A stretch of 64,000 nt of DNA from Eucommia ulmoides (lineage: Eukaryota > Streptophyta > Magnoliopsida > Garryales > Eucommiaceae), in NCBI GenBank assembly GCA_016647705.1, contig CM028328.1:11092614-11156613 (forward strand), read 5' to 3'. Made by a program: the position numbers and the translations under genes. The notes under the pieces are model-generated. The model saw nothing but the letters and a program-made list of their open reading frames with translations, ran no database searches and was not told where the DNA came from. Below, one piece after another: positions 2,500 through 45,500 of the stretch. The first letter of the stretch is position 1. Each line of letters begins with the position of its first letter.

Positions 2500-2807
2500 G
2501 GCAAAATACATTTTAAACCCTTTAACTATTGACTCGTTTCTATGTAGTGTAATAAGTTTTTTTTATTTCAGTTTAAATTTTCTAAGTATGTACTCAGTTT
2601 TAAATGCTTCTTCTATTAGATTTTTATCCAAACTAACAGAAATAACCTTTTTGAACGGGTAAAATAGTAATTTTATATATATATATATATAGATATTGTT
2701 TTTTTTTTCTTTTTTTTTTTCTCAATATCATCCTCTCTTTTTTTTCTCTCTCTCACACACACACACGCTCTCACAGAGCAACAATGTCCTCTCGAAAGAA
2801 CTCTCAA

Positions 2808-2991
2808 ACAATGGCCCCTCTCACACCACACTCTCTCTCCACCCCTCAAGCTCACCCCCGATCGCCTCTTGAAACCCCTCCAATTCTCCACCTCCTCTGC
2901 CGCACCCAAAATCTCTGCCACCATTTTTGTTGGAGACAACCTCCCCGACACCACCCTCTCCTACTTTGACTCATACAATGATCTCATGTAA
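2808..2991 (+). pseudogene. Captured 5' piece of a peroxiredoxin-2E (PRXIIE)-like gene
   Basis: The frame starting at 2830 reads LKPLQFSTSSAAPKIS and then ATIFVGDNLPDTTLSYFDS before a stop at 2989..2991. This matches the end of the transit peptide and the first strand of chloroplast type II peroxiredoxins (VGDKLPDATLSYFDS in relatives). Those enzymes reduce peroxides with thioredoxin or glutaredoxin. The catalytic PGAFTPTCS segment is absent, and the ATG at 2811 is in another frame, so the piece cannot make an enzyme. It lies directly inside the left TIR of the 2500..16075 element, which is where Pack-MULEs carry captured sequence. The family call rests on remembered similarity. Confidence 0.7.
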
Positions 2992-3120
2992 AGAATTTTA
3001 CTAAACCCATAATCCTTCAAACTGTAAAGAATCTTATTCAGTCACAGGGTTTTAAACAAAAAATCAAAGATTTTTCTTTGTATGGCACCCCCAAATTCAA
3101 TGATGGTGTAGTACCTAGTC
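2992..3120. other. Pack-MULE interior, nothing recognised
   Basis: Short stretch between the peroxiredoxin piece and the foldback element. It reads weakly like coding sequence, but I cannot assign it. Confidence 0.4.
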
Positions 3121-3508
3121 CTTTACCCATTTGGGTCTTTAAAGATCGAAAATAACAAAAATGGATTCCCTTTTATCTTATTTGCGAGATTAGGTCTTCC
3201 CGGCCTTGTGAATATCGATCTTTTTTTTTTTTTGAAACTTGCCTTGTCGCCAGTTTCTAAAATGGGGGCTACTACCATGGCGGCCCCTCCCCCTCCTCCC
3301 ACCCCACTCTCCACCCTCCCGCAATTATTTATATTTATAGTTTTATAATTTGTATATAATTATAATTTGTAATTAAAAATTATAATTTGTATATATAATT
3401 TTTAATTTTAAAATATTAAACAAATTTTAAAATTATATATATATAAATTATTCAAACCATACCCCCAACCTCTGCTCCCCCCCTCCCAAATGGTTAAGTG
3501 AAATTATA

Positions 3509-3589
3509 ATTTCACTTAACCTCCCCCCAAACCAAATTCGGCCCTGGCAAGGCCGGATTTGGTTTTTGCAGGAGGGGGTTAAGTGACAT
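3509..3589. repeat. Small hairpin inside the foldback's left arm
   Basis: This stretch is absent from the right arm and is itself an imperfect palindrome: TTCACTTAACCTCCCCCC pairs with GGAGGGGGTTAAGTGA around the core GGCCCTGGCAAGGCC. Similar CCGGCCTTG/CAAGGTCGG hairpins occur at 8836..8855. Confidence 0.6.
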
Positions 3590-4932
3590 TAATAAAAATG
3601 ATTTTATTTGTCATTGTATCAAAACTAGGGGACAAAAAATGTAGTTTTTCTATATATTTATTTTTTACACTTGTTCGGGCATTACTCAACCTATTTTTAT
3701 CATTTTTTATTATATTATAATAATAATAATTTTTTTTTAACAAAGTTAATTTTTTTTTCTATGCAGTCTGTACACTACAATAATTTTTTCTGAAGTCCAA
3801 ATTTATTGTACTATATAATAGTCACTATAATTTTTTCATATAAAAAATTACAATAACTTTTATGGCATATAAAAAAATTTGGGGGTATGGTTTAGGGGTT
3901 GGGGGTATGGTTTGAATTAAATTTTTTTTATACGCCATAAAAGTTACTGTAATTTTTTATATGAAAACATTATAGTGACTATTACATAGTACAATAAATT
4001 TGAATTTTTGAAAAAAAAAATTATTGTAGTGTATGGATCACATGGAAAAAAAATTAAGTTTGTTAAAAAAAAAATAATTATCTATTATATAAAATATGAC
4101 GGTTTTTTTTGCTGATTAGGATAAACTTATAACTAGAATAAAAAAAAATATGATTAGGACAAACAAAGTTGCTGACAAGACCAAATAAATTTGCTGACTA
4201 GAATATTTTAGCGACATTAATTAAGGATTATTAAAGGAAATTGGGTTTGTCGAAAAGGAAACAGACACGGATTGAGGGTATAATTTACTCAACTTCCTCT
4301 AATTAAAATTCTAATTTAATTAATCAATCCTTTAATTACTTCCATAAATAACAATTTCTCCTCTTTATGTTAGCTTCTGTTTTTGCTTCATGTTTCTTTC
4401 CCTCTAGGTTAGTAACGTTTGTTCTTCTCTATTTATTGTGGCCGTCACTCTCCTCAATCTAAACCCTCAACAACTTATCAAACCCCCCTTTTTCTTCCTC
4501 TCTCCATCTGCCATCTCGGTTCCATCGTCGTCTCCATGCCATCACCATCACTGCCACATTGCCCTTTGGTCGCACGTCGCCATCGTCATAACCAATAACA
4601 ATACATCCATAATCTCTCTCACCATCAGCCGCTACCCACATGTGCTATTTCCCTCCATCACCAGATCCATCTATCCCTCCATCGCTACTAAGCTGCCATA
4701 TCCGACATCAAATTCTCTCTCTTTCTCTCTGTGGAATCCATCTATGGAAATCGCGATTTCCATCTCATCGATTTCCTCTCTCTCTCTCTTTATGGAAATT
4801 TTATTTATCTCTCTACAAAAGTCTCAGTATTCTACCCTAATTTTCAATCTTAGATTCTGCCCTAGCTCACCTTGCGTTCCTCTTCTGTGGCAACGATGGG
4901 TGTGTTAGTAGAGCGAGGAATTGAAGAACAAC

Positions 4933-5425
4933 CATCTTCAGATTTGACTTTGGTTGATTCGGTAAGTTTAAACATCTTGATTGATTTTGTTTGTAATGTT
5001 GTATAGTTGTATTTTTGTTGATTGATTACTGATTTTGTTTATTATCAATGACGTATTGATAATAATTTTGTCAATGCGAAGGAACTTGAGGTTCTTAACT
5101 CTCCAGTTGTGGTAAGTGTTCAAGCATTAGCTAGATAAATCTTTATTAATCCGAATTTCTTCTTTTGCAAATTTTAGTTAGTTTAATTGGACGTAGATTA
5201 AAGACCATCTCCATCGTTGATGCTCACGCAACACACTTTCCATCGCTAAACATTTTCAGATCTGACGTTGGTTGATTTGGTAAGCTCAAACATCTTCGTT
5301 GATTTTGTTGGTACTGTTGTATATCTATATTGTTGTTGATTGATTTTATGTCACCTGGTACTGATTTTGTTTGTTATCATGGTTGGTTCCAATTTGTCAA
5401 TGAGATTGAACTTGAAGTTCTTAAG
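4933..5425 (+). repeat. Direct duplication inside Helitron 1
   Basis: The block 4933..5099 recurs, with decay, at 5251..5424. Both copies start with CAT(C/T)TTCAGAT, run through GGTTGATT(C/T)GGTAAG and TTGTTGATTGATT, and end near GAACTTGA(G/A)GTTCTTAA. The GGTAAG suggests a duplicated exon-intron border of a captured gene. The gene is not recognised. Confidence 0.6.
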
Positions 5426-6712
5426 CTCAAACATAGGTGGCGTTTGTTTAATGTTTCATTTCCAAGCGATCGTAGGAGAAGCGTTTTAATTATTAATTAG
5501 TATTAAAATATCAGGATTATCCCTCACATGATCTTAGATTAAAAGATGCTTTTGGAGCATGCGAAGTACAACATTGTTATAGGAGAGTGGAGAAACTTGC
5601 ATGCAGAAGATTTTCACAATTGAGGAAGGTTATACCTGGATCGTATTCAAAATACGACCTCTCCAAAGAAAATTTGACGTATCGGGATTTGGATTATTCA
5701 ATTTGAAGCTTTTCTCTCTCAGTGTTTTGGCCATTCCCTCCACCCACAATGCCAACCATCTCAACCACCGTCAACAACAACTGAATCGTAGCTCAATTTC
5801 CTTACATCTAAACCCTAACCAGGCGAGTGTTTAGAATGTTTAATTATTTTGATTTATTCTTTTTATCTATCAAACCTTGCTTCCTGAGGGAGATTGGGAC
5901 ATTGGGTTCAGAAACAATGTATTGGGCTGCCAGGATGAAGTGTACTTTGTCCCAAGCAAGGTTCCTGAACCTTAGTATCTGTTATTCCTTCAGAAACAAT
6001 GTACGAGGCTTGGCCTGTTTTGATAAAGTAACATTTCTCAATTTATAGGAAATACACTATCAAAATAGTTCTCTATCAATTTGCCGCCAAGTCCAATCTC
6101 CCACCTTTTGCTTGCTATTTCTATCATTTTTTTTTATCCAAGAGGAATTACTCCCACACATCTTCAACTTATTTTGTAGTCATTGTTATTTTGCTTTAAT
6201 TATTCTCATTTAGTATTATAATAATTGCTTTCCCAAATTATCGTAGGAGGCTTATTATATAGGTTGTTATTCATTTGACATCGTTGGAGGACTTCGGTGG
6301 AGTGCCACCGTAAAAACACTACGCCGCCACGGTTATTCACTGCTGGGTCGCAAACAGAGCCCATTGTGCACATGGGGGGAAATAGGATGAGTGATTTTTT
6401 TTCAAAATGATTCATATTTTGAACAACCATAATTCAAAATAAAGAAAGGTTTTTAGGTCCAAATTATTTAATTGCGAAAATGGGCTTAGAAATTATTGGA
6501 TTTCTTAATTATATCATCAACTTATCTTTGTTCCTTCCTTTTAAATTAATTGAAATTACTTTCTTAATTTTATGTTAAAAATGACAATTATTGTATTAGA
6601 AATGACAATTGTTGTATTTGTTTCTCAATTATCTTTGTAAGTTTTTATAGGTAATATGTTGATTATTTGTTAGTGATGTGTTCATTTCAAATTAAGTTGT
6701 CTGTTTTAGTAC

Positions 6713-6740
6713 GTGCCTTCAGGCATGGGTTATACGCTAG
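6713..6740 (+). other. Helitron 3' terminal hairpin and CTAG end (Helitron 1)
   Basis: Stem CGTGCC/GGCATG with a TTCA loop, then GGTTATACGCTAG. The terminus is shared with those at 8790 and 15893. Confidence 0.85.
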
Positions 6741-6962
6741 TAATATAATAAAAATTGATAAAAATGGGTTGAGTAATGTCCAAACAAGTGGAAAAAACAA
6801 ATAAATAGAAAAATTACATTTTTGGTCCCCTAATTTTGATACAATGACAAATAAAACCGTTTTCATTAATTTCACTTAACCATTTGGGGGGTGGGGGTAT
6901 GGTTTGAATCATTTATATATATAATTTTAAAATTTTAAAATTTGTTTAATATTTTAAAATTA

Positions 6963-7009
<47 letters not shown>

Positions 7010-8036
7010 TTAGTTATATATACAAATTATAATTTTTAATTACAAATTATAATTATATATATAAATTATAAAACTATCTATATAATAAAATAGGATGGCT
7101 TTTTGGCTGATTAGGATAAACTTATGATTAAGACAAACAAAATACTGACGAGAACAAACAAATACTGACTAGGACAAATATAAAAAAAATCAATTTTGGT
7201 AAAAGGTTAAATCAATTTTCCTTAATTAATTTAATTACAGAATTGAACGATTACACAATTCCTTAATTAAACATAACAATTAGTGAGAATATAAAAGTAG
7301 ATTAATTAGTGAGAATTGATTAATTAATATAAAAAAAAGAATGGTTTATTGAGTTATAAAAAAAGAAACATACATTTTTTATATATTTCTTAATTCTTTA
7401 AATATTGAGAAAAAAACAAAACTACCTATTAATTTATATCATATTTAATTTATTCCTTAATTAAATAATATTCCTTAATCATTTAATTAAATGTTTCTAA
7501 TTAAAATTTGCATCGTTGTCTGTCTCGGCTGTCGGCACTATACTTCGATTTCAACTGTTTCTTCGATTGCTTATTACTTCGATTTTTTATTTTTTTTTTG
7601 ATTTATTTCTTATTCAATTTTAGAATCTCCAATTGATGCTTGGACGGTGACCCCTGGAGTTGAAGCAGTGTCGTTTCTTAATTAACATACCATTTTTTAG
7701 GTATGTTTAACTAACCTCAACCTTAAGTTTCGAATCCCCAAACAATTTTTTTTTCTCTTTTTGTTACAATACTTTTGTTTATGTTCCTAGAAAACTGAGA
7801 ATACAAACTAAAATTTGGGACAGAAACACTACGGTGGTATTTCTTTAGCGTTTTTGCTCTTCAATTTATGTTTTTGTTCCTCCAAAAATCACTTAGGTAG
7901 CATTTGTTTTATTGCGAATTGGAGTTTTCGAATTGCAATTAAAAATGAACGTATGTAAAAATCTGAAACGTAACCGAATTATTCCATTTTGCCTCCAGAT
8001 TATCAATACTAAATTTTTTCCCCTTTTGTACAGATG

Positions 8037-8150
8037 ATGAACAATATCAATCTCGGGGTGGAGGTGGCGAGGGCCCACGGGATGGTGGCGAAATATGATC
8101 AGGGCTCATCTCTTGCCCTCTTCACCGATGTCACCAACTCCAAGTACTCT
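8037..8150 (+). pseudogene. Unidentified captured exon in Helitron 2
   Basis: After an intron-like acceptor (CTTTTGTACAG), the frame reads MNNINLGVEVARAHGMVAK and then YDQGSSLALFTDVTNSKY, running into a CT microsatellite. The composition is much more gene-like than the surroundings and the sequence is open through this stretch. I do not recognise the protein. It probably comes from a host gene captured by the Helitron. Confidence 0.4.
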
Positions 8151-8759
8151 CTCTCTCTCTCTCTCTCTCCAAATTTGCATTATTGGTGTATCAATATGTG
8201 TGCTAATGTACATTATTTGTTTGATTTTAATGGATGCTCAATTTGTAGGATGGATTCATACTGCTTTGTTACCACTATCATCATTTAAGTATTGTGCTTT
8301 GTGGTAATGCTTAATTGGGGGAAAACTAATACGTAAATTGTTGATTGGAATGGCGTTTTATTTGCAAATAGTTAAAATTTGCAAGTAGATTTTAGTGGTT
8401 TAGTCACAAGTTGATTCTAATATTTAAGTGGTTTTAGTCCGAAGTTGATTATAATATTGTTGTTAATTTTTTTATTTTTTGTTGTGCGCACCTGCGGCTC
8501 AGTGATTGTTTTTTATATTTAAATTTGTATTGTATAGTTTTGTTTTGTTTTTTGTGCACTTGCGGCTCATTGATTGTTTTTTATATTTAAATTTGTATTG
8601 TATAGTTTTGTTTTAATTACTATTTTGAGACAGTGAGATTTGGGAGTGTTGGAAAAATTAAGAGAATTTTGTTAATAAACTTAGTTATTTTTTGTATTTA
8701 ATAAATAATATTATTTTTATATTAAATTAATTATATATTTAATAATAATAAATTTAAAA

Positions 8760-8790
8760 CCCGTGCCTTCAGGCACGGGGTATACGGTAG
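8760..8790 (+). other. Helitron 3' terminal hairpin (Helitron 2)
   Basis: Perfect 8-bp stem CCCGTGCC/GGCACGGG with TTCA loop, followed by TATACGGTAG. Same family as 6740 and 15893. Confidence 0.85.
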
Positions 8791-8991
8791 TAAATATATA
8801 TAATTGGGCGAGGGTGAGGAGTGGGAGCTGCCCTTTTAGAAACCGGCCTTGTCAAGGTCGGTTTAAAAAAAAAAAAAAAAAAGAAAAAAAAAAAGAGCCC
8901 TTCATAAAGTCGGAAAGACCCAATCTCGCAAATAAGATAAAAGGTGATCCATTTTTGTTATTTCAGATCTTTAAAGACCCAAATGGGTAAA

Positions 8992-9582
8992 AGAAATCTG
9001 TGTGGTACCAGAGGAACTTCTGGAAGAGCTTCGGAAGAAACAGAGGGACTTAAAAGAGAGAATAAGTTACTATGTGCGTGAGAGAGAGATTTTTCTTCTT
9101 CTCGTCCATCGCCGCTGCCGATGCGATTCTTCTTCCTCTCCTCTATCGCCGCCACCGACGTGATTCTTAATGTTGGAAAGTGGGTGAGATTTTTCAGTGA
9201 ATCAGCTTAATCGATCATTTGGGTACTTCCATTGCTGCTACTTTGCACAACTTTTTTATTTCAACAATGGTGATTAATTACTCTAAAATAGGAAACCCAT
9301 AAGACGAAATAAAGGGTTTTCGGTTGGAAGGTAAAGAATCAAATATGTTCTTTTTGTCACAAATTTCGCTCTCAGTGCTTATTAAATCTCTACCGTCTGA
9401 TGCAAACGAGTGGTTTTTGAGAGGGCAAATGCATTTGCTGAGGAACATTGTGAGGATGAAGCACTATAGAATGGTATTTATATGACCCCGATCAAATTTT
9501 GGCGTCTCCTGATGTCTTCGTCTTCTTCATCGGGAGCGACCTTGCTCTCTCTCTCTCTATACATATACCCACAACTGCAGAT
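8992..9582 (+). other. Pack-MULE interior with coding-like but unnamed stretches
   Basis: Right of the foldback the sequence contains two coding-like bits: VPEELLEELRKKQRDLKERI (about 9005..9065) and SLPSDANEWFLRGQMHLLRN (about 9385..9455). Neither is recognised. They may be further captured exons of the Pack-MULE; no complete gene is present. Confidence 0.35.
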
Positions 9583-9744: not shown

Positions 9745-9905
9745 TGCACTAGCTCAATCCCTATTCCTTTGTATTTGAGCTTAACCAATTAATTTCATTA
9801 CAAGATAAGGTGGCATTCAGGCTGATGTGTTTGGCGAATATGAAGGGAAGTGAATACTTAGAGGCCATTGTTGCTGTGTGTGAGAGAGAGAGAGGGGATG
9901 ATATG

Positions 9906-9937
<32 letters not shown>

Positions 9938-10177
9938 TATAATAAATCAGCTCATTTATATCCAGGACCGTTGGATCAAGACATAAACATGAAAGACATT
10001 CGTAGCCATTGGATTACTTTTATCTTATACAACATATATTTTAGGGTTTGGAGCCGCAGCCTCTCACTCTCTTCCCCAACCCTCTTCCTCTCTCTCTCTC
10101 TCTCTCTCTCCCACCTCCGACGTCGCCGTTGAAATCGGCCAACTGCAACCATGGCCATTGCCACCGCCACCGCCACT

Positions 10178-10420
10178 GCCATCGCCATCGCCGTCTCCGT
10201 CGCTCTCGACTCCACCCAATCCACCATCGGTTCCTACCTCCCTCAACGACGGTGGCCGGATTACCCTCGGTTCCTCCCTCCCTCGACGATAGCGGCGAAT
10301 CGCCACCGCCATCGCCGTCTCCGTCGCTCTCAACTCCACCCAATCCACCCTCGGTTCCTACCTCCCTCGACGACGACGACTGGATCACCCTCGGTTCCTC
10401 CCTCCCTCGACGATAGCGGC
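10178..10420 (+). repeat. 119-bp tandem duplication, CT/GC-rich
   Basis: Units 10178..10296 and 10302..10420 share CCATCGCCGTCTCCGTCGCT, CTCCACCCAATCCACC and CTCCCTCGACGATAGCGGC. The duplication and a CT run before it create several overlapping open frames on both strands that look like artefacts of composition. Confidence 0.85.
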
Positions 10421-10871
10421 CAAATCTTCGGCCATATCTCCATCGATTTGGACAGATCTAGCCAAATTGAAGTTCCCTGTGCAGCTACCAACACTGTCAT
10501 TCCCCTTTGCAGGTACGCCCTCTCTTTCTCTGCCTTTACGCCATTTATTGTTCATTTTTCTCTTAGAACCTAGGTTGTGTAAAATCTAATTTGGCATGAT
10601 CTGGTGACCAATAGCTGAGCTTCAATAGTTGAATGCGCTGCTGTTGTGGTGCATTTCGCTTCAGTCGATTTGTTTGCTAAAACGAAACACATTTTCGAGG
10701 GCCTGTTTTGGTTTTTCATTATTTTTGGGACGTTTGGCGATTGAAATTAGGGTTTATGTATGGATTTTAGTATTTTTGGGATTTGAAATTAGAGGAGAAG
10801 TGCATGCACATGTCTTTTTTTTATACGTATTTGTTGTTTATGTGCTTTTGGGATATTGTAGGGCAATAACG

Positions 10872-10961
10872 AGCAACGAAGAAGAGAAGAGGTATCCCCT
10901 TTGTGAGGAGGAGATGGACTGGACGGATCTGCAATTTAAGCCCTGCCAATGTGGTTATCAG
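10872..10961 (+). pseudogene. Captured RING exon piece of a NOT4 (CCR4-NOT subunit 4)-like gene
   Basis: The frame reads SNEEEKRYPLCEEEMDWTDL then QFKPCQCGYQ, followed by a possible splice donor (CAG/GTTTGG). This resembles the start of plant NOT4, whose RING begins CPLCAEEMDLTDQQLKPCKC. NOT4 is an E3 ubiquitin ligase of the CCR4-NOT complex. Here the first zinc-binding cysteine is tyrosine and the rest of the RING is absent, so the piece is not functional. Its place inside a Helitron fits exon capture. Confidence 0.75.
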
Positions 10962-12159
10962 GTTTGGAGTTTGAAATCATATAGGCTCTAGAATAAATTC
11001 CCTTCCCCCTCTCCCATTATATATATGTTTTGGTAATGGGATTTGCTATTTTGCCTAAATAATAATTATTTTATATATTATTTCAATGTTCTTTTTTTTT
11101 TTTAATTTAATTTATGTTCTATTGTAGAATTAGAGGAAAGAGAGACAAGCTAGCGACGAGGGAGGGAAGCAGCTATAGAATCAGGTTAAATCTTTGTTCT
11201 GTGTTTCTGTTCCCGTTTGTTCTGAAATGTTAAGACCTAAGTAGAAACATGATTTTTAGTTGCATTGAGCAAGAGTGCTTTCAATGAAAATATCAATGGC
11301 ATATTCATTTTGTTCAGATATTCATTGTGGCTGTTGGTCAACATAGGATGAAGGTAATATTTCTTTAGTTGCTTCTTTTTGATTGGGTGTTGGTGTGCTG
11401 ATTCGTCTAAAATTTTGCCTCTAATTGTTGTTTTTTATTCTGGTATGAAGCATTTACGAACTCTTGCACACCACCTGTTTATGTAGGGTCTTTAATGAAA
11501 TTCACAGTGCCCTAACTCACAATGCCTTAACATGTCCATTTGTTCATTAGAAAGTGCTTTACAGTTATGCATATATATCTTTCGCCTCTGAAAACCAATG
11601 AATCGGATCCTTGCTCCTACAACCATAGCTTCAATTAGCGGCTTATGATGGTAAATTTCAATCATTTCTTCGATTTGTATATTGGAAATTTCTGGATTAT
11701 ACCATTGACTATGTTTTTTTCCTCCTGTTGCTGGGGATGAGCTGTTTTTCACTCCACTTCTTCAGTTTCTGTTGTATTTCTTTCGAGAACACATAACAGT
11801 ACAGAAATTGTCGATCAGCTTTTGCTGCGCTCATGGAGAGTGAAGGATCGTAGTTCAAATAAGGGGGAAGAAATTGTCGATCAGTCTGATTTGTACTCCT
11901 ACTAAACATTGAGGTAAAGAACAAAGAAATTGAAATACAAAAATTGCATTTTTCTAATTTATGATTCTGTTTTTTTTCCTTGGGCTGCATTATTTTTTCT
12001 TCTTCAGTTTGATAAATCTTAGAGATGGGTATTGCGAGATTGTTTATTTTAGTTTTTGGTCTGCATTATTCTTCATATTTGTGATTTGGGATTGTTTTAA
12101 TATCCATTCATAAGTCCAAGAACTCACCAGGAACTGACCATTTCTCAATTCTTCTCCAA

Positions 12160-12279
12160 TTAGCTAAGAAACCTATCCTCAAAGCTGCGGATCCTCCCAA
12201 AAAGGTTGTTTCCCCTCCCAATAAGGCGGCTGCAGTTGCATCTAAGAATGGTCACAAAGCTTCAAAATTGACTTGAAGG
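12160..12279 (+). pseudogene. Lys/Pro-rich exon-like piece, unidentified
   Basis: An open stretch reads AKKPILKAADPPKKVVSPPN and then KAAAVASKNGHKASKLT before a stop, flanked by AT-rich intron-like sequence. It resembles the basic tail of a nuclear or nucleolar protein but I cannot name it. It is probably another captured piece in Helitron 3. Confidence 0.35.
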
Positions 12280-15180
12280 TAAGGTAAGAACTTTGATTCT
12301 AAAAAATACGTTGTATGTAGTCGAGTGATTCGGCGAAGGTAATTTTTAAGTTCTCCAACTGATTGTTGTTGTAATATTTTTCTTTTGGGTCAAATTATTG
12401 TTTTAATTAAGCTGGACAAACAGATCCTCAACTATAGTAGTTAGTGAAACTCATGAAAAACAATTTGAGTAGGTTCAAGTGAGTGCTGATAAGAATGGCT
12501 CTGTTGCATGTATATTTCGGTTTGATTACTTTTCTCCATATATATTTCAGTTTGTTTGTTTTGGTTTATGTTGTGTGATGAGAAAGATCAATCTCGAGTG
12601 CATGTTGTTCCAGCATTTGCTCCCTATTATGCTCCTTAGGCAGAAGTACTTTTACTTACATTTATTTCCCTTGATGATATATAGTTTTCTCTTCCCTTTC
12701 TATTTGCTCTTTCCATTCTTTCATTTTCATATTCTATAATTCACTCATTTTTTATTGCTGGTTATGCACAGTGTAGTTATCGCCTTCAAGCCATGGATGC
12801 TATTTTGTGATGCACTCCAGTGTGGTTATGGTTTCAACTGGTTATGCACAATGTGTTTATGGTCTTCAAACTAATGAAAACAACCTTGCTTTGAGCCTGT
12901 TTAGCACAATGCAAGAGAAAGACACCGTATCACCGAACATTGTCATAAGTTGCATTTGATTGGTAAGAGTTGTTTTTAATTTTCAAGGTTTTGAGACATT
13001 GGCTTAATGGAAGGTTAATTTACTATTTGATCTAATTCATTTCGAGGTAATTCCTATAATAAAGTTTTTCCGGCTTTGAGAAATCCAGATATATATTGCA
13101 TGTACTGTTTCCGTAATATTTATTATTCTTTGTTTCAATTGTTTTTTTTTTTTTTTTTGGGTTTTGTTGTTGATCTGTTATGGATTTCCTGCAATTTTTA
13201 TATATTTGTCAGTTTGAATCTGTTCCAAATTCGTTAAAAAATGGTTATAATTTGTTTCAAATAATGGTTATATAATTTCAATTTGGTGATCCTCCTTTCT
13301 TGATTCATAAGTGATAATTCCTCGCCCTTTTCCTCTTTATTTATTTTTTTTTTTAATCTACTTAGCTTTGGAATATTTTCATCAATTTTGTTTTATATGC
13401 ATCCTTTTGTCTGTTACTTGAGCATAAAATGATACAATGGAGTTTGGTTGAAGATTGGTGTAATTGTTCCATACATTTCATGCCTTTGGCTGATTTTTTA
13501 TCCCTTTCTGCAGTTTTTGTTTGATCAATTTTTATTTTTGATCAATAGCTTATTTAATAAAAAATCTGCATATTTTAAGCTGACAAAATGCATTACCTAC
13601 TAATTTTTGTTGAACATTAAATTGATATATATCCATCGGTGGTTATGATATATATCCATTTTATTATTATTGTTATGTTGCCAGTTAAGATTTGTTGATG
13701 GTAACGATCTTATATCTACGAGCAATAGAAATTGCGCATGGGGACCTTCGCCATGTTGACCACTTAATTGAAACATATGAATTTATTAGTACCTTTTAAC
13801 CACTACTAACCACAATGCTGACCACTTAATGCTGACAAATAAATTCATCTGTTTCAGTTCATCTGATTAGTACCTTTTAATCACTACTAACTTTTAACCG
13901 CTTAATAATGAATCCTGTAGCAGAATTTTGTGTATGCAAATATCAATGCTGACCACTTAAATGAAAAAAATAAAGTTACAAATCAAAATTACATATTATT
14001 TTAGTTGCATAAACACTGTTATATCATATAAGCCACAAAAATATTGGCAGTTTACTGTAAATAAGCCAAGCAGTTGCGTTTTGTTGCTATTTCTGTGTCA
14101 GGTCATTTGAGATTTAGTTTATAAATTAATTATTTGTCTCAAGTACTATATTTATTCATCTATGTTATTATCTAGGTGAGTTTTTAAATTTTTTTCCTAT
14201 TAAAGATTTTTTTTTTCTTTGATTGCATAATTATATTATGAACCATGATATTAAAACTTACACATGTTTTAGTTTCAAAACATTTAGGCGGGGCAATTGC
14301 AACATATTGATGATATCTACTGTGCAAGAACGGAAGGACCTTGAAATCCCAGAACTAGAACCACTAGATCTCTCCCGCTCCTGGAGTCATGTTTTAAATG
14401 GTACCTCTCTCTCAAATCTACTGCATTTAATTTTCAATTTGCTTTTTTTTTTTTTTTTTTTTGCAACCACTGGATTTTGTTTAGGGATTTTTATTTCATT
14501 TATCTTAAGGAATTAATTTGATTTAGTTTTATGAATTTTGATTCCATTTCTTCATTCTAGGAATTTAATTTATTTTAGGGATTGTGTCCCATTCTTGATT
14601 TGATTCTTCATTCTACTCATTTTATATGCCTTGAGTGTCGGGCATTGTTGCGAAACTCTACAATTTGGTTGCCGAGAGATCAAAACACCAGATTGGAAAG
14701 GCTTTACGACCGGTACTGTAACAATCTTTCTTTGTTCCCGGCTGTGTTCTTCAGATTCTGGTTGAGGTACGAAGAAATTTAATCTTCTTCAATGGTTTTT
14801 CTATATGCATTTAGATCTACTGAATTGGGTTTTTGATTAGGGTTTTATGAGTTTTTCTCAATTTGATTATCATGCACAGAATTCTCTTCTTTGTTGAATT
14901 GATTCTAATTTCATTACATTGATTTCATTTCATATAGATGACCCGTTTGGTTGTTTTTCAATTCAGTAAATTCGACTATTTTTTTAATATTTGACAATTT
15001 TGTGAATTTGTTGAATTTAAAATTTGGCTGTAAAAATTAAAAATGTTCAAGTTAGGTTAATATCACAGGTTCATCCAGGTGTAGACGACAGTTTTGCAGT
15101 GTGGGACGGTCTCTTATCCACTTTCAGCTGTAAGGTAGAGGTTTTGATGCTCCGAGCCCGCTGTCTTTCGAGTGCAAATA
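12280..15180 (+). other. Helitron 3 interior without recognised genes
   Basis: AT-rich sequence with short exon-like bits (about 14280..14400, reading RKDLEIPELEPLDLSRSW, and about 14640..14720). No family is recognised and no complete gene is supported. Confidence 0.4.
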
Positions 15181-15214
15181 AATGATGCATGGTGAGTTTG
15201 ATCTGGTGGTTTTT

Positions 15215-15360
15215 TGTTTCTGTTTCTGTTCTGTTCCCTGTTTCGGTTTTTGTTTCTGTTCCCTGTTTCTGTTTCTGTTCCCTGTTCCCTATTTCTGTTC
15301 TGTTCCCTATTTCTGTTCTGTTCCCGTTCCCTGTTTCTGTTTCCGTTTCTGTTCTTAACA
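15215..15360 (+). repeat. Pyrimidine-rich CTGTTTCTGTTCC microsatellite
   Basis: Irregular repeats of CTGTTTCTGTTCC and CCTATTTCTGTT. They account for the repetitive open frames on both strands here. Confidence 0.75.
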
Positions 15361-15862
15361 TTAGGTGTTGGTTAGTGGTTATATTGGTGATTGTTTATTT
15401 GTACTCGGGTATATTGATGATTGTTTCTCATTAATTGAATGGTTATTGAACCTTTTGTATAAGATTAATCAGATCAAATTAATAGTGAGTTGAATGTTTT
15501 TTACATAATAATACTACCGAAGAGGTTAAGAAAATATTGGGGAAGGGCCATGGGTAAGTGAAACGCCATCTTAATGTATAAAAGCATTCATTAATTTCGT
15601 TGATTGTTGTACGAATTGGGTGAAAAAGTTTTACATTGGTGGAGATATTATAAGGTAATTAAGTTATTGTTATTTGTTTTAGTAATGTTTGTTTCAGGCA
15701 CGGATTTGTTGTCTTTGAAAACACGTGTTAACAATTTAAATTCATTATTGTTTTTTATGTTTGTGGTTGTGGTTACTGGCAGTATATTCTGTAATGTTTT
15801 TTTTATGTTGGGTCTGTTGATTTTTCTACTTAATTGCGTAAGTATTAGGTTTTCTTTTTTCG

Positions 15863-15893
15863 CCCGTGCCTTCAGGCACGGGTTATACGCTAG
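15863..15893 (+). other. Helitron 3' terminal hairpin and CTAG end (Helitron 3)
   Basis: Perfect 8-bp stem with TTCA loop followed by TTATACGCTAG. It is the least decayed of the three copies. Confidence 0.88.
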
Positions 15894-16075
15894 TATATAT
15901 ATATAATATGACTATTTTATCCCTTCAAAAAAGCTATTTCTTTTATTTTTTATAAAAAATCTAACAGAATGATAATTTAAAACTGAGAATATATTTAAAG
16001 AGTTTAAATTGAAATGAAAAAAATCTATTAGACTATATAGAAACGTGTTAATAGTTAGAAAGTTTAAAATTAATA

Positions 16076-16450
16076 ATTTATGTATACTATGTTTTTCTTT
16101 TATATTATTTTTTTATTTAATTTTTATAATTTTAGTATTATTACTTAATTTAATATATATAAATTAAAAAAAAATTAATATACATAATTTTTACATATTA
16201 TATTTTCTATTTATATTATTTTTTTAATTTAATTTTATAAATTTAATATTTTAATATCATTACTAAATTTAATGTGCATATATTATTTTTTTAATTTTTT
16301 AAAATTTAATATTCATAATTTTTATATATTATATTTCTTTTTTATATTATTTTTTGTAATTTAATTTTTATAAATTAATATGAATAGTAAATTTAATGTC
16401 ATTATATTATTTCTATTGATTAATATATACAGAAAAAAATATTCTCTTCT
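16076..16450. repeat. AT-rich tandem array, part 3
   Basis: The same repeat phrases as at 149..349 and 2184..2499 (AAATTTAATGTGCATATATT, TTCATAATTTTTATATATTA), right of the Pack-MULE. No gene is seen. Confidence 0.6.
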
Positions 16451-16757: not shown

Positions 16758-19718
16758 TCAAAAATCATGAACCCGAATATTGAGCCTTCGGAGCCAAATA
16801 GAATGAAGAATCATATGAAACAAATCAAACCTTTTTGGTTGTCCATTTATTGCAAAATGCCTTTGCACTTGCTTCACCCTCCTATGCATCCTCAAGTATT
16901 GACTTTGGGACACCGCCCTCAATATCCTCTTTATGTTCCCTATATCCTTAACCTCCACCACTATCGAGAACGCCCTCCAATTGATGACGTCACTGAACGG
17001 CGGCACGTACCCGTTGGAAATCAGCACCGGCACGCACTCCGCGTAAATGGCCTCCACTATCCGGGGACTGGCGACTTCATATCCGCTAGGGCAGAGGCAG
17101 AACCGGCTCTTTTTCATCATCGACTCGTAAGAAACGCCGGCGGGCAGGGAATCGTAGACCTGTACGTCTTGGTCTTTGCCTTTCCAGTGGTCGAGGAGGA
17201 GGGATCGGATGTGGCCGTGGAGGCGGCCGGCGAAGAAGGCGAGGATTGGACGGAGGCGAGGGGAGGGGCCGCCGAGAAGTCCGGCGATTTCGCCGGTCTT
17301 GAGGTGGATTTCTGGTAGCGAAACGTCTTTGAGGGGGTTGAAGCCTTCGGAGGTGTTGGCGTTGCAGAGGACTCTGATGGAGTGGTTGAATAGTTGCGGG
17401 ACATAAGATGATGAATATGGCCCCTGAAAATTAAATTTTAAAAATAATAAAAATTAAATCAAAATACAAAAGGAGCAAAAAACCAATATTAGCATGAAAC
17501 ACTATTATTTTTATTTGAATATCTACTCTAATAGTAATGGTAAATTAGCGTGTTATTTTTTTTTTTATTCAAATTAAAATTAACCAAATAAAACTAATTC
17601 AATCCAATCTAACCCAAATAAAATAAAATTAACCAATTAATCTAACTCAAATTACTCAACGTAAGTAAAATAAAATTAATAAACTAAACTCTATCAAACT
17701 TAATTAAACACAAATAAACACAACTTATTTAAACTCAAATCAAATTTAATTAACCAAAATTATAATAAATCTAACAAATCCTAACCCATCCTATCAATCC
17801 AACCGTATTTAAACCCAAATTAACTAATTAACCTACTCGCCCACTAACCCAACATTTTTTGCTCTTGTTTTGCATGTGTCATATTTGACACATGCAAGGC
17901 ATCTGTATCAAAATGGTACACATGATAACACATTTATTGGAATGCATTTTGATTTCAAAATAGTTAAAAATTGAGATGACACAAAGAATAGCACAACCCT
18001 CGGAATTATTCAATTTGAACTTTTTTTTGGTTACCCAATCATGGCAGGAGAGCATGAAATGGTCGGCGCCAAGGCTCCGGTTCCAGAAGATGTGTCTGGA
18101 GGAAACGACGTCGATGTAGTCGGCGACGGTTCTGCCGATGGCTTGCCTGTCAGGAGTCCCCGGCTCGTACAGGTATTGAACCATCACCACCACGCTGAAC
18201 GGCAAGAAATAAACAAAGGCCTCGTTTGGATCGCGCGTTCTGTAAAAATTGCCTTTCTCCATCTCATGAATGAACCTCCCCTCCGTCGAGTATATGCTTC
18301 TGCATGGTCCAGTGTGGAACATCGGAAGCTCCCCTTCTTCGTACACGTATATCTTGAACACCTTCTCCATTTCCAAATAGCTCCTAATCATTTAAAAATA
18401 AAAATAAAAAATAGTGATAACTAACAGCTCAAGCGACAAGACACGTTTGAGTTAAAACAGTTGAGGGATCTCTGCAAAGTCAGAAATTCGAGTCTGCAGA
18501 AAGACACTTGTTGGGAAGGGCAGCCACAGAATCCCAAACGAGATTAGTTTCACACCCTGTATGGGAGTTAATATATATAATCTAATACCCATATTTAGGT
18601 GCGATTCTCATAGATTATTTGACAACGAGATAATGATAAAATATATTAAACCCATGATTGCACAGATGATTTGATTACGAAAAAAGGAGAAATTAATTCT
18701 TATAAATAATTTTAATATCATTTTAAGACCGATTAAAATAACTCCTAGAAATATTCGAACTATCAACAAATAACTTACACTTTATAAAAATATAGTTAAA
18801 TTACACCATGTACCCTTGAAGTTTAACTGCAAGTTTCATGCTGTTTTTAATTTTTAAAATTTTGTACATTAGTCCTTATTCTTTTATTTTATTGTTAATT
18901 GACCTAATTCTACACTGCAAAGGGGGATAAATTATTGGTTGGAAATTTGAATTGGATCAATTAGTACCGATGAAAAGCATTGGCGTTATGGTAGATGGGA
19001 CCCTGCGGAACATAATCCGGATCCTGATGAATCGATTTCATGGCGGTGCTTCGATTTTGAGTAGCTTCTCTAATTGAAGAACGTGCTTTTGCCAAAATCG
19101 CTTCCACCCTCTCCAACGGCCTGTTTCTGCTTTCACCCCTCCTGATATCTTGCTTCTCTTCCTATTATATCTCAATCAAAAGATACAAAATCGTTAAAAA
19201 TTGGGGTCCTAATGAATATAACATGAAATTGCGAGGTCGAATTTGAATTTTTACAAGTGTAAAATGATATTTTCAATTTTTTTTTAATACTTTTCAACAA
19301 AAAATGCCCTAAAAAACTTTATCATTCAAAGTTTTTTTTTACCAAAAAGAAGATAAAAAAATCCACAAAAATAAAATAAAAAAATATTCGCAGCTCTTAC
19401 CGATTGGGGTTGAACACCAGTTGCATTTTCAGCTAGCATTTTTTGGTGAGACCAGACCTCCGACAAGGAGGAACTATTTGTTGAAGATTCATCCTCCATA
19501 ACCAAATCTGAAGGCTTATTGCTTTCTTCTTTGCTATAAGCAAGAGAACGAACACTCAAAATATTAACAGAACTCCACGCCCATGGAGGTGACAAAGAAA
19601 CCAAAGATCTCTCATGGCCAAAATCACCGAAACCGAACACAATCACAACCAACAGAGCCAAACCCAGGAACAGTGAAGAAGAGCATGAACTCAAATGGAG
19701 CTTTCTTAAAACCCACAT
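16758..19718 (-). CDS. Exostosin-family (GT47) glycosyltransferase, four exons, intact
   Basis: I read exons 19401..19718, 18968..19161, 18035..18383 and 16758..17423, all with GT-AG borders and matching phases, giving 508 aa and a stop. Residues about 15-31 are one membrane anchor after a short basic start, so it should be a type II Golgi protein. The exostosin domain (about 172-460) begins YLEMEKVFKIYVYEEGE and includes LPFSVVVMVQYLYEP, LSCHDWGPY across an exon border, NTSEGFNPLKDVSLPE and the conserved SPRIVEAIYAECVPVLIS (about 406-423). Relatives act on cell-wall polysaccharides; the exact substrate is not known from sequence. It is closest in style to the Arabidopsis At5g03795/At5g25310-type group. 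Length is normal for the family. Exon 4 is GC-rich in its first half. Confidence 0.93.
17570..17850. repeat. G-poor tract in intron 3 of the GT47 gene
   Basis: On the plus strand this stretch is A/C/T-rich and almost without G, with recurring AACCCAAA, TTAACCAA and AAATAAAAT phrases. On the transcribed strand it is therefore U/G-rich with very little C. No gene is seen; the intron runs 17424..18034. Confidence 0.55.
18421..18600 (+). mobile_element. Possible tRNA-derived SINE in intron 2 of the GT47 gene
   Basis: The sequence has an A-box-like AGCTCAAGCGACAAG and, about 60 bases on, a B-box-like AATTCGAGTC, the spacing of a Pol III promoter. A SINE-like unrelated tail and an AT-rich end follow. 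It lies antisense to the host gene in its largest non-terminal intron. It could also be a chance match. Confidence 0.4.
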
Positions 19719-22821: not shown

Positions 22822-25271
22822 GTCTTGATCCCAAGATTTTGATGGATAATTATATATTTATATTTTTCGTGGAACTAATAAGTCTATTGAGTATTTCAGT
22901 GTAAATATTCTATTATTGATGTTATCGTGAAGTAATTGCTAAGGATGCAAAGAGACAGACAAAAAGACGGATATTAAAAATTGAAGATTCTGAAGAATCT
23001 AGGTGAAAATAACTCAAGTTATTTTTTACTCTGAATGTATCCCGATTAGGATCACACATAATACAAAAATGATTTATATTTATATATGTTTTTATTAGAA
23101 TCCTAATTAGTTCACATATTTGCTCCAATGTGAAATTGAAAAAGAAAAATTGACATGAGAGAGACTAGTATTTAAAATTGATTAATAATGTCATTTAAGT
23201 TAACCGAGAAAAGATATCGATTAAAAAGTCAAAAACGTTGAAAATTAGAGTTGAAATATAATTGAGAAGGAGTGATCCAACATTGATCGATCAACTGATT
23301 ACAAGAAGACCTGTAAATCGATTGGTAATGGCTAGAAAGTAGAGAAGTCTCTGAATCGATTGGTCAACCAACCAAGAGAGATTGGTCAACCGATGGCTGA
23401 GAAGTAAACTCTCTGAATCCATCGGTCAACCGACCATGGCCGAAAAATGGCCTAGGGAGCATCCTGAATCGATCTGTCAACTGCCCTATGGAGGATCAGT
23501 TAACTGACCCATAGGGGATCGGTCAACCGACCAACGTATGAAAATTGCTTGGGTTACAACCTGAAACGATCGGTCGACCGATGGGGCAATTTCAATGTTT
23601 GAGGGTTTTCGAGATTTGATCTAAAACTAACAGTTACTAACTGTTTTTTTGGTTGATATCTTGGAGATATTCTGGGGATTTGAACATATTATAGATATAT
23701 CATTCGTACTTACATATCTATATAGATATGGTATACTTATTTTAAGTGTTTCTCAATTTAATCTATTTTAATACTTCTTATCCTTTTTTAAGAATGTAAA
23801 ATAATTTGAGGATTAAATTGAATGATTTAAAAGTTATATTCAAGTGAATTGAATCAGGATTGAGTAATATTGATATATGGAGTCTATATGAGTATTTAAA
23901 TGTCATATCTTGTGGGAACTAGCCATTAGAAGGCATGTTTCAAATCTATTTAAATAGACATGCGAATTTCACATATCTATATCTCACTTCTATCAAGAAC
24001 TAATTTTCCTGAGTTTTCTAAGAGTTATCATTTTGATATTTTATTGAGCGATCATTGTGAGATCATTCTATGGTTGAAGTTTTTGAGTTAAAGTGCTAAG
24101 TGATTTGATATTACCGATCTAAGTTGTCTTGCGATTCGTTTTTAATCTTTCAGTGTTTTCCTGGTGAGATCGTTCCAAACTTTTGTTCTTTATTGTGATT
24201 ATATATTATTACTGCTTTCTTGGATATAAGATCTTGTAAAATCGTTTTTGAACTTTAAAAACATAAAAATTATTTTAAAATAATTTTTGTGATAATTTGA
24301 TTACGTGCTTATTTTTGTGCTACTTATATCTATTATAATCATATTTTTATTTCCTCTTATAAATTCTATCACTAGTAAATTTGGGACATTAATTGAGTTT
24401 AAATTTATTTGAGGTAGTAGAAATTTCGAGTGGGAAGAAATTTATCAATTTTTGTAATTGGTGAGTTTTGTGTGAATAAGATATTGTTGGGAATATCTAA
24501 TCAGGGGTAGCAAGGGTTTCAATCTCTTCCAGTAAAGAGATTGATGTTTAATCTTTACCTAAAGTACAAAAAAGTTAGGTTACTATTTTCCCATGAAAAG
24601 AGTTAGGCGTGATTTTTCCTGATTAGAATTAATTGTGAGTGAATTATAAATGTTTCATCCTTACCTAGGAAAAAGATACTTGGAGTGTTTTTGGTGATGT
24701 TTGATTCTTAGCCTAAGATATAAAAGAATTAGGTTTGATTCTTAACCTGTGAAAGGATTAGGTTAGTCTTGAGCATAAAAAAAAAGATAAGGTTATTCCT
24801 GCGCATAGAAAAATGATTAGGTGATGATTCTTCCTGTAATAGAATTATGTTAATCTTTAGCCTGGAAAAAGATATAGGTTATTTCTTAATCTGCGAAAAG
24901 AGAATTGTAAATGTTGATTTTGAGCATGTAAAAGAATCATTGTGTAAATGTTTGATTCCTACTTGTTTAAAGGAATCTTAGTGGTTTAGTGAGTGTGAAT
25001 CTTTGTGGGGGCTTGGAGGACTAGATTAGTCCGGAGTAACTTGGTGAATCAGGATATATTGAGGTGTTCTGCATTGTTACTTTATTTATTTATTGTTATT
25101 TGGATGTGTACCTAGAGCTAATTACACTTATCTGCTACTATATAAAAATAATAATTAATTTTGGATTAAATTAATTATTTGAAAATTTAAGTGTTGAAAG
25201 ATAATTATTTTCTTTAATTTGTATGACTACCCAATTCACCCTCCCTTTTAGGTAGATTACTAGGCCAACAC
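22822..25271 (+). mobile_element. Solo LTR related to the Copia LTRs at 46-58 kb
   Basis: It starts TCTTGATCCCAAGATTTTGA and ends near ACTAGGCCAACACG. In the opposite orientation it matches the whole plan of the LTRs at 46213..48479 and 56060..58313: the AATAAGTCTATTGAGTRTTTCAG start region, the GGTCAACCGACC-rich middle (about 23280..23590), the repeated 'AAAGATTAGGT' phrases (about 24500..24990) and the CCAATTCACCCTCC end. No internal coding region adjoins it, so it looks like a solo LTR. It is much diverged from the 46-58 kb copies, hence older or of a sister family. Confidence 0.75.
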
Positions 25272-36986: not shown

Positions 36987-38607
36987 CTGCGTTTGGTATG
37001 TTGGAATGAAATGACAATATAATTGAAATTAGGAAAATGTACATTTTAAACCCTCTAGGTATTGACAAATTTCTAAAGGCCCCTCTCTATTTGAGTGTTT
37101 CATTTTAAACTCTTTAGGTATCAACTCGTTTTTATTCGGTCCTTCCATAAAAAAATCTGTCAAAAATAACAGAATAGAGGTGCAAATTTGTCTTTTTACA
37201 TATTTTTAATATTTTAATAATTTTTTATTTTTTTTATATCCTGCTCAACTCTCTCTCTCTCTCCTGCTCAAAATTATCTCTCTTTCTCCTTCCTTCTTTC
37301 TTCCTCTCTCTCTCTCTTCCTCACTCTCTCTCCCCGCCGGCCGAAACAAGGGTAGAACTACCCCCTATTACGGAACCACCTCGACCACCACCATCTCCTT
37401 CAATTGCTTGCCATCGAAAACCCAAAAGAAATAGAGGCCATCACATTCTTTTGCTTGCAATTGAAAACCCAGAAGAAATAGAGGTCATCTTCCTTTGCTC
37501 ACCATCGAAAACCCAAAAGAAATGGAGGTGGGACACTGCATGCACGTTTGCTAATTACTTAGAGCGGGAGAGTCTAGAGAAAGAATCTAGAGAGAAAGTA
37601 TACCAGAGCTTTGGATCGGCGATCGGATTGGGGACAGCGATGGAAGCTAGATTGGAATGGTGATGGTAACGGCGATGACAAGTTGGCACTCAGGCTGTAG
37701 AAGTTATGGCATTGGATGTGAGATATGAAAGAGATAAGGAGATCGGTAAAGATGGTCGACGGCGAAATGGTGGAGATAGCGACGACGATTGGAAAAGAAT
37801 TGAGAGGGTGAACCGTTAAGAGTAATGGAGAGAGAGAGAGGTTCCACCCCCCTGTTCTGGTTGGGGGAGAGTGAGGGAAGGAGGGAAGGAGAGAGAGGAG
37901 TAGAAAAAGAGAAATAGAAAGAGAGAAGGGGAATGAGGGAGAGAAAATAATAAAATAAAATAAATTAAAAAAAATTAAAAATGATTAAAAAATAAAATAT
38001 GGAAAAATACTACTTTACCCTCAAAATTCTATTAATTTTGACAGAAGGACTGAATAAAAATGTATTGATATCTAGAGGGTTTAAAATCAAACGCTTAAAC
38101 AAAGAGGGACCATTTAGAAATGTGTCAATACCTAGAGGGTTTAAAATGTATTTTTCCTTGAAATTAATATGGTAATGAAATATAATGGTCATTACCTTTC
38201 CTACGTTTGGTGACAAAAGGGACTACATGTGGTATTGGAATGATATCAAAAGATAATATAGTAATTTAAAAAAAGATTACATGTGGTATTGGAATGACAT
38301 CAAATGTTAAAATAGTAATTTAATTAAATTTTCAAATAGTATAATGGTTAATTTAATTTAATTTAATTCCAATTCAAATATTTGGCTAGTATTTGGTGTC
38401 CTTTTTTGATCGATGAATGTTTAAAACTTAATCGTATGTACTTGGGATTAACTAATACCAAGTTTATCTTGGTATTAGTTAATTTCATTTTTTGTGAGAT
38501 TAGAGAATCCTTGGTAATGGGATTTAATTCTATGTACCAAAAGTAATGAAAAAAATCATTTCACTGGTCATTCCAATCTTGTCTCGAATCCCATATACCA
38601 AACGCAG
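36987..38607. mobile_element. Inverted-repeat element (CTGCGTTTGGTAT ends) hosting a MULE
   Basis: Both ends carry CTGCGTTTGGTAT in mirrored orientation, followed within 40 bases by TTGGAATGA and GAAATGA. Without the nested MULE (37032..38157) the element is about 500 bp and non-coding, with a direct duplication of GATTACATGTGGTATTGGAA-type sequence near 38222..38312. This end type is common in PIF/Harbinger or hAT MITEs. A clean target duplication was not found. Confidence 0.65.
37032..38157. mobile_element. Non-autonomous MULE with perfect 9-bp target duplication
   Basis: TTGAAATTA stands on both sides (37023..37031 and 38158..38166). The TIRs of about 130 bp begin GGAAAATGTACATTTTAAAC and end mirrored in GTTTAAAATGTATTTTTCC. 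They match the MULE ends at 1..148 and 2500. The interior has CT- and GA-rich tracts mirrored near each end (37250..37335 and 37830..37940) and a middle part with the repeated phrase CCATCGAAAACCCAAAAGAA. No transposase is seen. Confidence 0.93.
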
Positions 38608-42548: not shown

Positions 42549-45500
42549 CAGGGGTGTTAAAAAAAACCGACCAACCGAAAAATCAAACCAAACTGACAAA
42601 AAAAAAAAAAAAACAAACTAGTGAAAAACCGATTGGCCCGATTTTTTTTTTGCGCCGAAAACCACATCCCCGGTTCGGCCCACGGTTTTAGAATTATGAA
42701 CCGCGGTTTAAACCGCACCGAACCGTACATATAAAACGACGTCGTTTTATATGTATATATATACACAGTTACACATAGATTAGCTAACCCTAGCCTTCAT
42801 TCCTCAAATTTTTGCCGCCTCCAAATTCGAAACTCTCCACAGGAGTGATAACTCTAGGCCTTCGTTCTCTCTCTCTTCTCTCCATTCCGTTCTCTCCTCT
42901 CTCCGCAAGCACAGAGCTTCGCCTTCTGCTCGGAGAATCATGTGTGCTCATAAAAATGGCGAACACAGAGCTTCGTCGTCGCTGCTGTTCAAACGATCGA
43001 AACTAAGATCCAAACAATTGCAACCGGAGCTGAGATCTCCCTCCTCATTCATATCGAAACCCTAGCCGCAACAGATCGAAAGGTTAGATCTCAACAGATC
43101 GAAACCCTAGCTAGAAGTGGGAGTTCCTCAAATTTCTTTTTCGGTGAGTATCACTCCCTAATTTCTTCTTTTTATGCGCACATATTTTACAGTTGTCATC
43201 ATATTTGATCGAAACCCTGGTGCTCTGTTTGATAATTTCTTCTTTTTCTTCTTTTGTTTTGTTGATGTTGGATTTGGATGTGTAAATTTTCTTAATTGTT
43301 AGATAATTGATGGCTGAAAATGTTGACAACACTCCTACGGTTGCTACCAATGATGAACGCCCACCACAATGTAAAGGAAATAAGAAGTCATTTGTTTGGA
43401 AACATTTCACATAATTGAAATCTGAGGAACGTGTAGGTTAGGGTTCCAGGACAGCTTGTAATTATTGTTCTAAAAATTTTGCATGTGATTTGAGAAAAAA
43501 TGGAACTAAGACAAGGGAAGTTCACCTAGAGCAAAGATGTGACAAATACCCGTTGAAAGTCCCAGATCCCAAACAAACAAGGATTGCCTTTAAAATGAAA
43601 TCAAATTGTAGTGGTACTGGTAGTGGTCAACTATGGTATTTTAGTGCAAAGGATTGTAGAAAAGCACTTGCTAGAATGATAATAATTAATCAATTACCAT
43701 TTAGGTTTGTTGAAAATGAAGGATTTAGGGACTTTATGCGTGTTACTCAACCTATGTGGGTGAATATTCCTTCATGCCCTACGATTGCTAGAGATTGTTT
43801 GGGACTTTATAATGAGGAAAATGAGAAGTTGAAATCTTTTATGAAGGGTAAGAGAGTTTTCCTAACAACTGATACGTGAACGTCTTTGCAAAATTTGAAT
43901 TACATGTGTCTTACCACATACTTCATTTATAATAATTGGAAATTATACAAAAAATCCTTAATTTTTTTTTAGTTCCAAATCATAATTGCAAAACTCTTGG
44001 TAACACAATTGAAAATTGTTTACTTGATTGGGGAATTGGAAAATTTCTTACTCTAACAGTAGACAATGCAAGTTTAAACAATGGTGCAATTAATTTCTTG
44101 AAGAGAAAGATAAAAAATCGGAAGGGTTTTGTATTGGAACATGAGTTTCTACATGTTAGATGTTGTGCACGCATTTTAAATCTTATTGTGTGCGAGGGTT
44201 TAAAAGAAATGGATGAGTCCATCCTCAAAATAAGAAATGTAGTAAGGCATGTGAGATTATCCCCATCTAGATTGGCAAGTTTCAAGGTTTGTGCCGAAAA
44301 AAAAGGTATTGATTGTAAGAGTCAAGTTTGTATTGATGTGCTAACTAGATGGAATGCTACTTATTTCATGTTGGAGAGGGCAATTAAATTTCAAGTAGCG
44401 TTTGACCGATTGGTGGAAGAGCGTGAACAAATGAATAGAGGTTTTGATGATGATGATGATGATGATGAAGATGATGTAGATGATGCTGAGAATGTGAGAG
44501 TAAAAAAAGCTAGAAGGGTTTTGGGTCCACCAACTAGTGGGGATTGGAAAAAAGCTAAGTTGTTTGTAAAAGTTCTTAAATTATTTTACAATGCAACTTT
44601 ATGGTTTTCTAGTTCCTTATTTGTCACGTCTAATAATTTTTTCATGGAGCTTATGATAATCCAAAATGGAATAAGTAACTTGGGTGCAAACTCCGATGCA
44701 TTTTTACAGTTGATGGCAATTGTAATGAAAGAAAAATTTAACAAATATTGGAAAAATACCGAAAAAGTAAATCCGTTGTTGCTTGTGGCGGTTGTTTTTG
44801 ATCCTCAATACGAGTTAAAGTATGTATAATGGTGTCTAGGGGATTGTTACGATAAATCCATTGTGCTTGAGTTAATTAATAAGTTGAAACGGTGTTTGAA
44901 TCAATTGTATACTTGGTATTCTGAAGATGGGACAGTAAATATAAGTAAATCCCAAGATAGAAGTGTATCCTCAATTGATTTAGATGTGGAAGAAGAGGAT
45001 GAACGTAAATCTTTCACTGCCAAATTTCAAAAATACCTAATAGAAGAGGGTGATATGAGTTACAAATCGGAAATGGATAAATTTTTACTTGATTCTTGTA
45101 AGAAGGAAAGTAAAAATTTTGATATATTGGGGTGGTGGAAGATAAACACGATGAATTATCCGATTCTCGCTCAAGTAGCGAGGGATGTGTTAGCCATTCT
45201 GGTATCTACCGTCGCTTCAGAATCTGCTTTTAGCACCGGTTGACGCATTCTTGATCCATTCCGAAGCTCATTGTCAACAAAGATGGTGGAAGCCTTAATT
45301 TGCACTCAAAATTGGTTGCGCCGGTCAACTTCTATCAATCTTCGAAAAACAATGGAACAAGTTGAACAACTTGATCTTATTGACGTTGAGGAAGCTAATA
45401 AAAAATAGAAAATGTTTGTTTACAATTCATAGTTTCTTTTCCTTGTTAATGCATTAATTTCTCTCATTTTTTAATTGTAGATCTTGGTCAATCTTTTTTT

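Follow-up and report, generated by a model that had tools for sequence, protein, structure and literature searches.

Results

Three Helitron-type inserts within two inverted-repeat elements

In a 64,000-nucleotide stretch of the Eucommia ulmoides genome (contig CM028328.1, positions 11,092,614 to 11,156,613; hereafter the window, to which all coordinates refer), a palindromic foldback element and a longer inverted-repeat element that encloses it are interrupted by three inserts with Helitron-type ends, termed H1, H2 and H3. The locus is best explained, with good confidence, as a nest of DNA transposons comprising an outer element, the foldback element and Helitrons. Pairing of the arms across all three gaps, an A before and a T after the inserts (ambiguous on the 5' side of H3) and 3' ends common to the inserts were observed directly. 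We infer the superfamilies involved, the arrival of the outer element before the foldback element and the mechanism of transposition.

In the proposed course of events, the first arrival would have been the Mutator-like outer element with its inverted repeats (2500 to about 16074). The foldback element (3116-8999) would have entered it, duplicating some 10 bp upon insertion. H1, H2 and H3, whose Helitron 3' ends are related, may then have arrived by rolling-circle transposition, each between an A and a T where the right-arm sequence is very A+T-rich; H1 and H2 would have gone into the foldback element, and H3 into the outer element's right terminal repeat. The nested arrangement is neat but ordinary. 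An intact arm lying opposite an interrupted arm provides an empty site within the same molecule, and Helitron ends can be read off by comparing the two, with no need for another genome; this is of practical use for annotation when a species is represented by a single assembly. This argument, raised earlier for H1 and H2 in a reading of the sequence without database searches (the sequence-only reading), holds good and is extended by H3 in the outer element, making three empty-site cases in one nest.

The foldback element and its interrupted arm

The foldback element, previously placed at 3121..8991, likely extends slightly further, spanning 3116..8999 (no strand assigned), and comprises two long arms and a loop of about 40 bp, being split by H1 and H2. 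Based on arm-to-arm alignment, the Helitron-free left arm corresponds to 3116..3880 (plus strand). The right arm is found in three pieces, 3919..4080, 6741..7076 and 8791..8999 (all minus strand), each an inverted match to the left arm. When 2701-9400 was compared with the whole window, five inverted matches were obtained, namely, 3577-3717/6741-6881 (90%, E 2e-47), 3708-3880/3919-4096 (86%, E 2e-46), 3122-3231/8884-8991 (87%, E 1e-29), 3343-3470/6889-7032 (83%, E 5e-28) and 3325-3398/7014-7088 (92%, E 1e-23). These are collinear: the left-hand coordinates rise from 3122 to 3880 as the right-hand ones fall from 8991 to 3919. With H1 and H2 removed, end-to-end alignment of the arms alone revealed 566 of 627 aligned bases to be identical (90%), such that self-comparison and masked alignment both bear out the earlier claim that the left arm pairs with three right-arm pieces across the two gaps. 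Comparing 3096-3900 with 3901-9020, again with H1 and H2 removed, gave 580 of 658 (88%), a count that includes the loop and about 20 flanking bases per side. Without the inserts, the element measures some 1.5 kb, most of which is occupied by the long terminal inverted repeats.

The rejoined right arm thus resembles the intact left arm, as had been stated, at the 90% level rather than throughout. An extra small hairpin of about 85 bp (~3507..3591, no strand assigned) is present in the left arm only, where it adjoins 15-bp direct repeats (GGTTAAGTGAAATTA at 3492 and GGTTAAGTGACATTA at 3577). The left arm may have gained it by insertion, or the right arm may have lost its counterpart through a slippage deletion; a one-arm hairpin beside such repeats (3492-3591) would be in line with a possible slippage deletion across the hairpin in the other arm. 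In addition, the likeness between the arms is poor at ~3235-3310, in the middle of the outer arm part, while the remaining differences are several simple-repeat length indels. Copies of a module, TTCAAACCATACCCC, lie both in the paired arms and at the loop. Outside the element, GTGTAGTACC (3106..3115, plus strand) and GTGTGGTACC (9000..9009, plus strand) match at nine of 10 bases and probably represent the left and second copies of a target-site duplication.

Ends and junctions of H1 and H2

H1 (4081..6740, plus strand, 2660 bp) begins with TC and ends with CTAG, whereas H2 (7077..8790, plus strand, 1714 bp) begins with TC and ends with GTAG, differing in the first base of the usual CTAG. The A before and T after each gap reported earlier were seen for both. 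The 5' ends of the two are alike over 113 columns (78%), as are their 3' ends over 32 bases (91%), with no other match between H1 and H2 appearing at E 1e-4; the description of the pair as sister Helitrons accordingly applies to their ends only. The last 29 bases of H2 agree with those of H3 apart from the first base of GTAG and one other position, and H2 is termed a Helitron-type insert, probably one with a changed end base. No Pfam match was obtained for the H2 peptide.

To gauge the precision of the junctions, each insert was cut out in 31 x 31 = 961 ways by shifting both of its trial ends, and the joined flanks were aligned to the other arm. For H2, the cut at the assigned ends scored best of the 961, tied with a 1-bp shift because both sides begin with T. 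For the 3' end of H1, the top cuts lay at offsets of 0 to 2 bp, while the 3' end of H3 was retained by the single best cut. Relative to the other arm, H2 thus sits between A and T to within 1 bp and duplicates no target bases, whereas for H1 and H3 the same can be said of the 3' side only, their 5' sides being off by 7-10 bp. The base precision claimed in the sequence-only reading therefore stands for H2 and for the H1 3' end, but not for the H1 5' end; the assertion that the arrangement proves the Helitron ends is fully true only of H2 and, at the 3' end, of H1 and H3. The TC start of H1 is nonetheless backed by its match to the start of H2.

A third insert and a common 3' end

The sequence-only reading recognized two inserts at the locus; both are real, yet a third Helitron-like insert was missed. 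H3 (9942..15893, the start lying between 9932 and 9942; plus strand, about 5.95 kb) ends with CTAG, is followed by T and has its 5' end within (TA)n, rendering the A/T flank on that side ambiguous. The common 3' end recurs at 15865-15893, i.e., at the end of H3. Directly thereafter, 15894-16070 is an inverted match (81%) to 2510-2685, while 9876-9942 is an inverted match (74%) to 2673-2760. When 9942-15893 was removed, 2510-2761 paired across the gap over 254 columns (79.9%). Judging by these alignments, H3 lies within the outer element's right terminal repeat and divides it into an inner piece (9875..9941, minus strand) and an outer piece (15894..16070, minus strand), both inverted matches to the left terminal inverted repeat (2510..2761, plus strand), which serves as the empty-site copy. 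Within H3, 10863-10979 matches Pfam zf-RING_4 (E 3.2e-9), a RING-type fragment that is presumably NOT4-like. Helitrons commonly capture pieces of genes.

A 3'-end pattern shaped by H1 and H2, and not by H3, was sought on both strands with up to five substitutions allowed, and was found in the window only at the ends of H1, H2 and H3. A 5' TC is seen in H1 and H2, and a 3' CTRR in H1 and H3 (CTAG in both). By the definition in PMC2267711, a palindrome of 16-20 bp lies 10-15 bp upstream of a Helitron 3' end; a perfect stem-loop lies 11 nt before the 3' end in H2 and H3, in each case with a fold that beats 200 of 200 shuffles.

The outer element and its relative

The outer inverted-repeat element, probably Mutator-like, spans 2500..~16074 (no strand assigned), with GGCAAAATACATTTTAAACC at its left end and a right end that is apparently some 8 bp short, these ends being placed, though not proved, by likeness to a relative at 37032-38157. 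The two are alike over 69 columns (81%), at 38115-38182 of the relative. The inverted terminal repeats of the relative measure some 300 bp (316 columns, 74%), and a perfect 9-bp duplication, TTGAAATTA, lies on both sides of it, features that fit a Mutator-like element. Outward of 2510/16070, the inverted match of the outer element extends no further than chance (74 of 200 shuffles as good).

Internal repeats were noted in the relative at 37391-37529. Near the window start, 1-160 is related in reverse to the left end of the outer element (110-158 versus 2497-2545), and 13-349, likewise in reverse, resembles 2315-2641 (63%), perhaps marking the end of a further outer-element copy. A stretch at 2707-2988, first taken as peroxiredoxin-like, returned no Pfam match (E up to 5) and no PDB-sequence match (E up to 1) and was dropped as a candidate; gene capture by the outer element is hence not shown.

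Weighing of the nest against other explanations

Several observations weigh against the nest as described. At the 5' side of H1, the assigned cut is beaten by 111 of the 961 cuts, the best lying 7-9 bp further in. This end adjoins an A/T-simple run in which the left arm is longer by five bases, and it is because of these extra bases that the other cuts score higher. Likewise, the trial start of H3 at 9932 is beaten by 84 of 961 cuts, the best being 9942, where no TC is seen, and past the A/T run the 5' part of H3 shows no alignment to H1 or H2. H2 ends with GTAG rather than CTRR. The H1 hairpin contains a mismatch, was missed by the hairpin scan and folds no better than 52 of 200 shuffles. The general scan found two of the three ends, with six one-strand shuffles giving 0, 1, 0, 2, 2 and 1; since shuffles yield similar counts, the scan is too noisy alone and proves little. 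No transposase or Rep/helicase was found for these elements, no broad search having been made (Pfam scan of 10 chosen pieces of the window). At the outer element, the right end and the duplication are degenerate, the latter being a weak, possible one of 7 bp, the A/T-only AATTTAT (2493-2499 / 16075-16081), and A/T-rich direct repeats outside both ends (2183-2343 / 16263-16415, 80%) are unexplained; a further copy of these repeats was noted at 199-349, near the window start. Finally, the foldback duplication includes one mismatch, with 21 of 400 random flank pairs scoring as high.

This last point, together with the imperfect match between the last bases of the foldback arms and the lack of a second copy of the element in the 64-kb window upon self-comparison, would suit a palindrome at 3116-8999 that arose by local inverted duplication rather than as a transposon, with the Helitrons arriving later. 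Such an origin is nevertheless judged unlikely, given that the 10-bp near-duplication lies exactly at the foldback edges, that TTCAAACCATACCCC recurs in the arms and loop as in modular foldback elements and that a reading frame is open across the rejoined site. The frame adds little, since it stays open for a distance to both sides even if the site is not rejoined, the left frame continuing into the element; the peptide across the rejoined site had no Pfam match and only five PDB-sequence rows, the best at E 0.13. It could also be imagined that the inserts were ancestral in the right arms and that the left arms, which have no inserts at any of the three places, lost them by deletion. Three independent, nearly precise losses would be required, and the three stretches end like Helitrons, are followed by T and, in the case of H2, leave a gap exact to 1 bp, rendering this origin extremely improbable. 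A nest of transposons remains the preferred explanation of the locus.

Does foldback DNA attract Helitrons?

The sequence-only reading also raised the idea that foldback DNA may attract Helitrons, as could occur if extruded arms exposed single strands to the Rep nuclease. Indeed, all three recognized 3' ends in the window fall in inverted-repeat arms. When arms were counted as matches of at least 60 columns with a partner within 6 kb, Helitrons having been removed, they amounted to 2938 of 53674 Helitron-free bases (5.5%) and held 6.3% of AT dinucleotides, with the unmatched chance of three of three in arms being 0.00025. At the three sites, however, 38, 34 and 38 of 40 flanking bases are A or T. 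Among AT sites matched for A+T content, 36%, 14% and 33% lie in arms, for a product of 0.017 (about 0.015 with each own site excluded), while within the nest, once given, 74% of AT sites fall in arms, for a product of 0.41. The coincidence is thus small on either count, and the window was, moreover, picked after the fact for this very feature. According to PMC4778049, Helraiser, an active Helitron, prefers AT dinucleotides in DNA that is A+T-rich within about 20 bp. We therefore consider it enough to invoke A+T-rich sequence and the tolerance of insertions inside a nest that already exists. Attraction to foldback or inverted-repeat DNA is hence considered very unlikely, and the suggestion was not upheld.

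All three inserts do occupy right arms and share one orientation (plus strand), a weak lead, with the chance being 1 in 4 for the same arm, 1 in 4 for the same orientation and about 1 in 16 for both. A fixed arm and orientation would be expected if the Rep nuclease took its targets on a single strand laid bare as a palindrome extrudes or replicates. That long inverted-repeat arms are preferred Helitron targets, with arm and orientation fixed, is held to be slightly less probable still. No report of Helitrons being directed to palindromes or foldback DNA was found among the literature titles and abstract beginnings listed, an absence that is not proof. Palindrome targeting can be tested genome-wide but draws no real support from this window.

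Other features of the window

Elsewhere, direct repeats of about 2.25 kb (46208-48477 and 56065-58311, ~90%), perhaps long terminal repeats, were noted, as were their diverged inverted relatives at 22825-25267. Pieces of an Exostosin GT47 gene lie on the minus strand at 16758-18391 (Pfam E 6e-41 and 4e-15), and a hAT-like transposase fragment at 43936-44829 (Pfam hAT-like_RNase-H, E 2.5e-15); copia-type matches were also present among the Pfam-scanned pieces. Together, the Exostosin GT47, hAT-like and copia-type matches point to DNA of plant origin. Across the window, Rfam at gathering thresholds and a tRNA scan (bacterial code) each gave no hits.

Comparison with known systems

The inserts differ from non-autonomous, rolling-circle plant Helitrons in the GTAG end of H2, the mismatch in the H1 hairpin, the concealment of the H3 5' end in (TA)n and the lack of Rep/helicase in the 10 pieces scanned. 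They resemble such Helitrons in the TC start of H1 and H2, the CTAG end of H1 and H3, the hairpin 11 nt before the 3' end of H2 and H3, and the A before and T after.

Elements of the foldback type whose arms are modular have been described as Mutator relatives (PMC3169594, PMC4486113). The element at 3116-8999 departs from foldback/Mutator-type elements in its imperfect duplication, in the lack of any transposase seen and in having no second copy in the window. It is like MuTAnT of Medicago and Tm1 of Meloidogyne, and like FARE of Arabidopsis as cited in those papers, in being nearly all arm with a short loop, in its recurring module and in its probable duplication of about 9-10 bp. Relative to Mutator-like elements and Pack-MULEs, the outer element is unusual in its short right end and weak, 7-bp, A/T-only duplication. 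In keeping with such elements, it has ends in common with 37032-38157, the terminal repeats measuring 254 columns in the outer element and 316 in 37032-38157, and the latter carries a 9-bp duplication.

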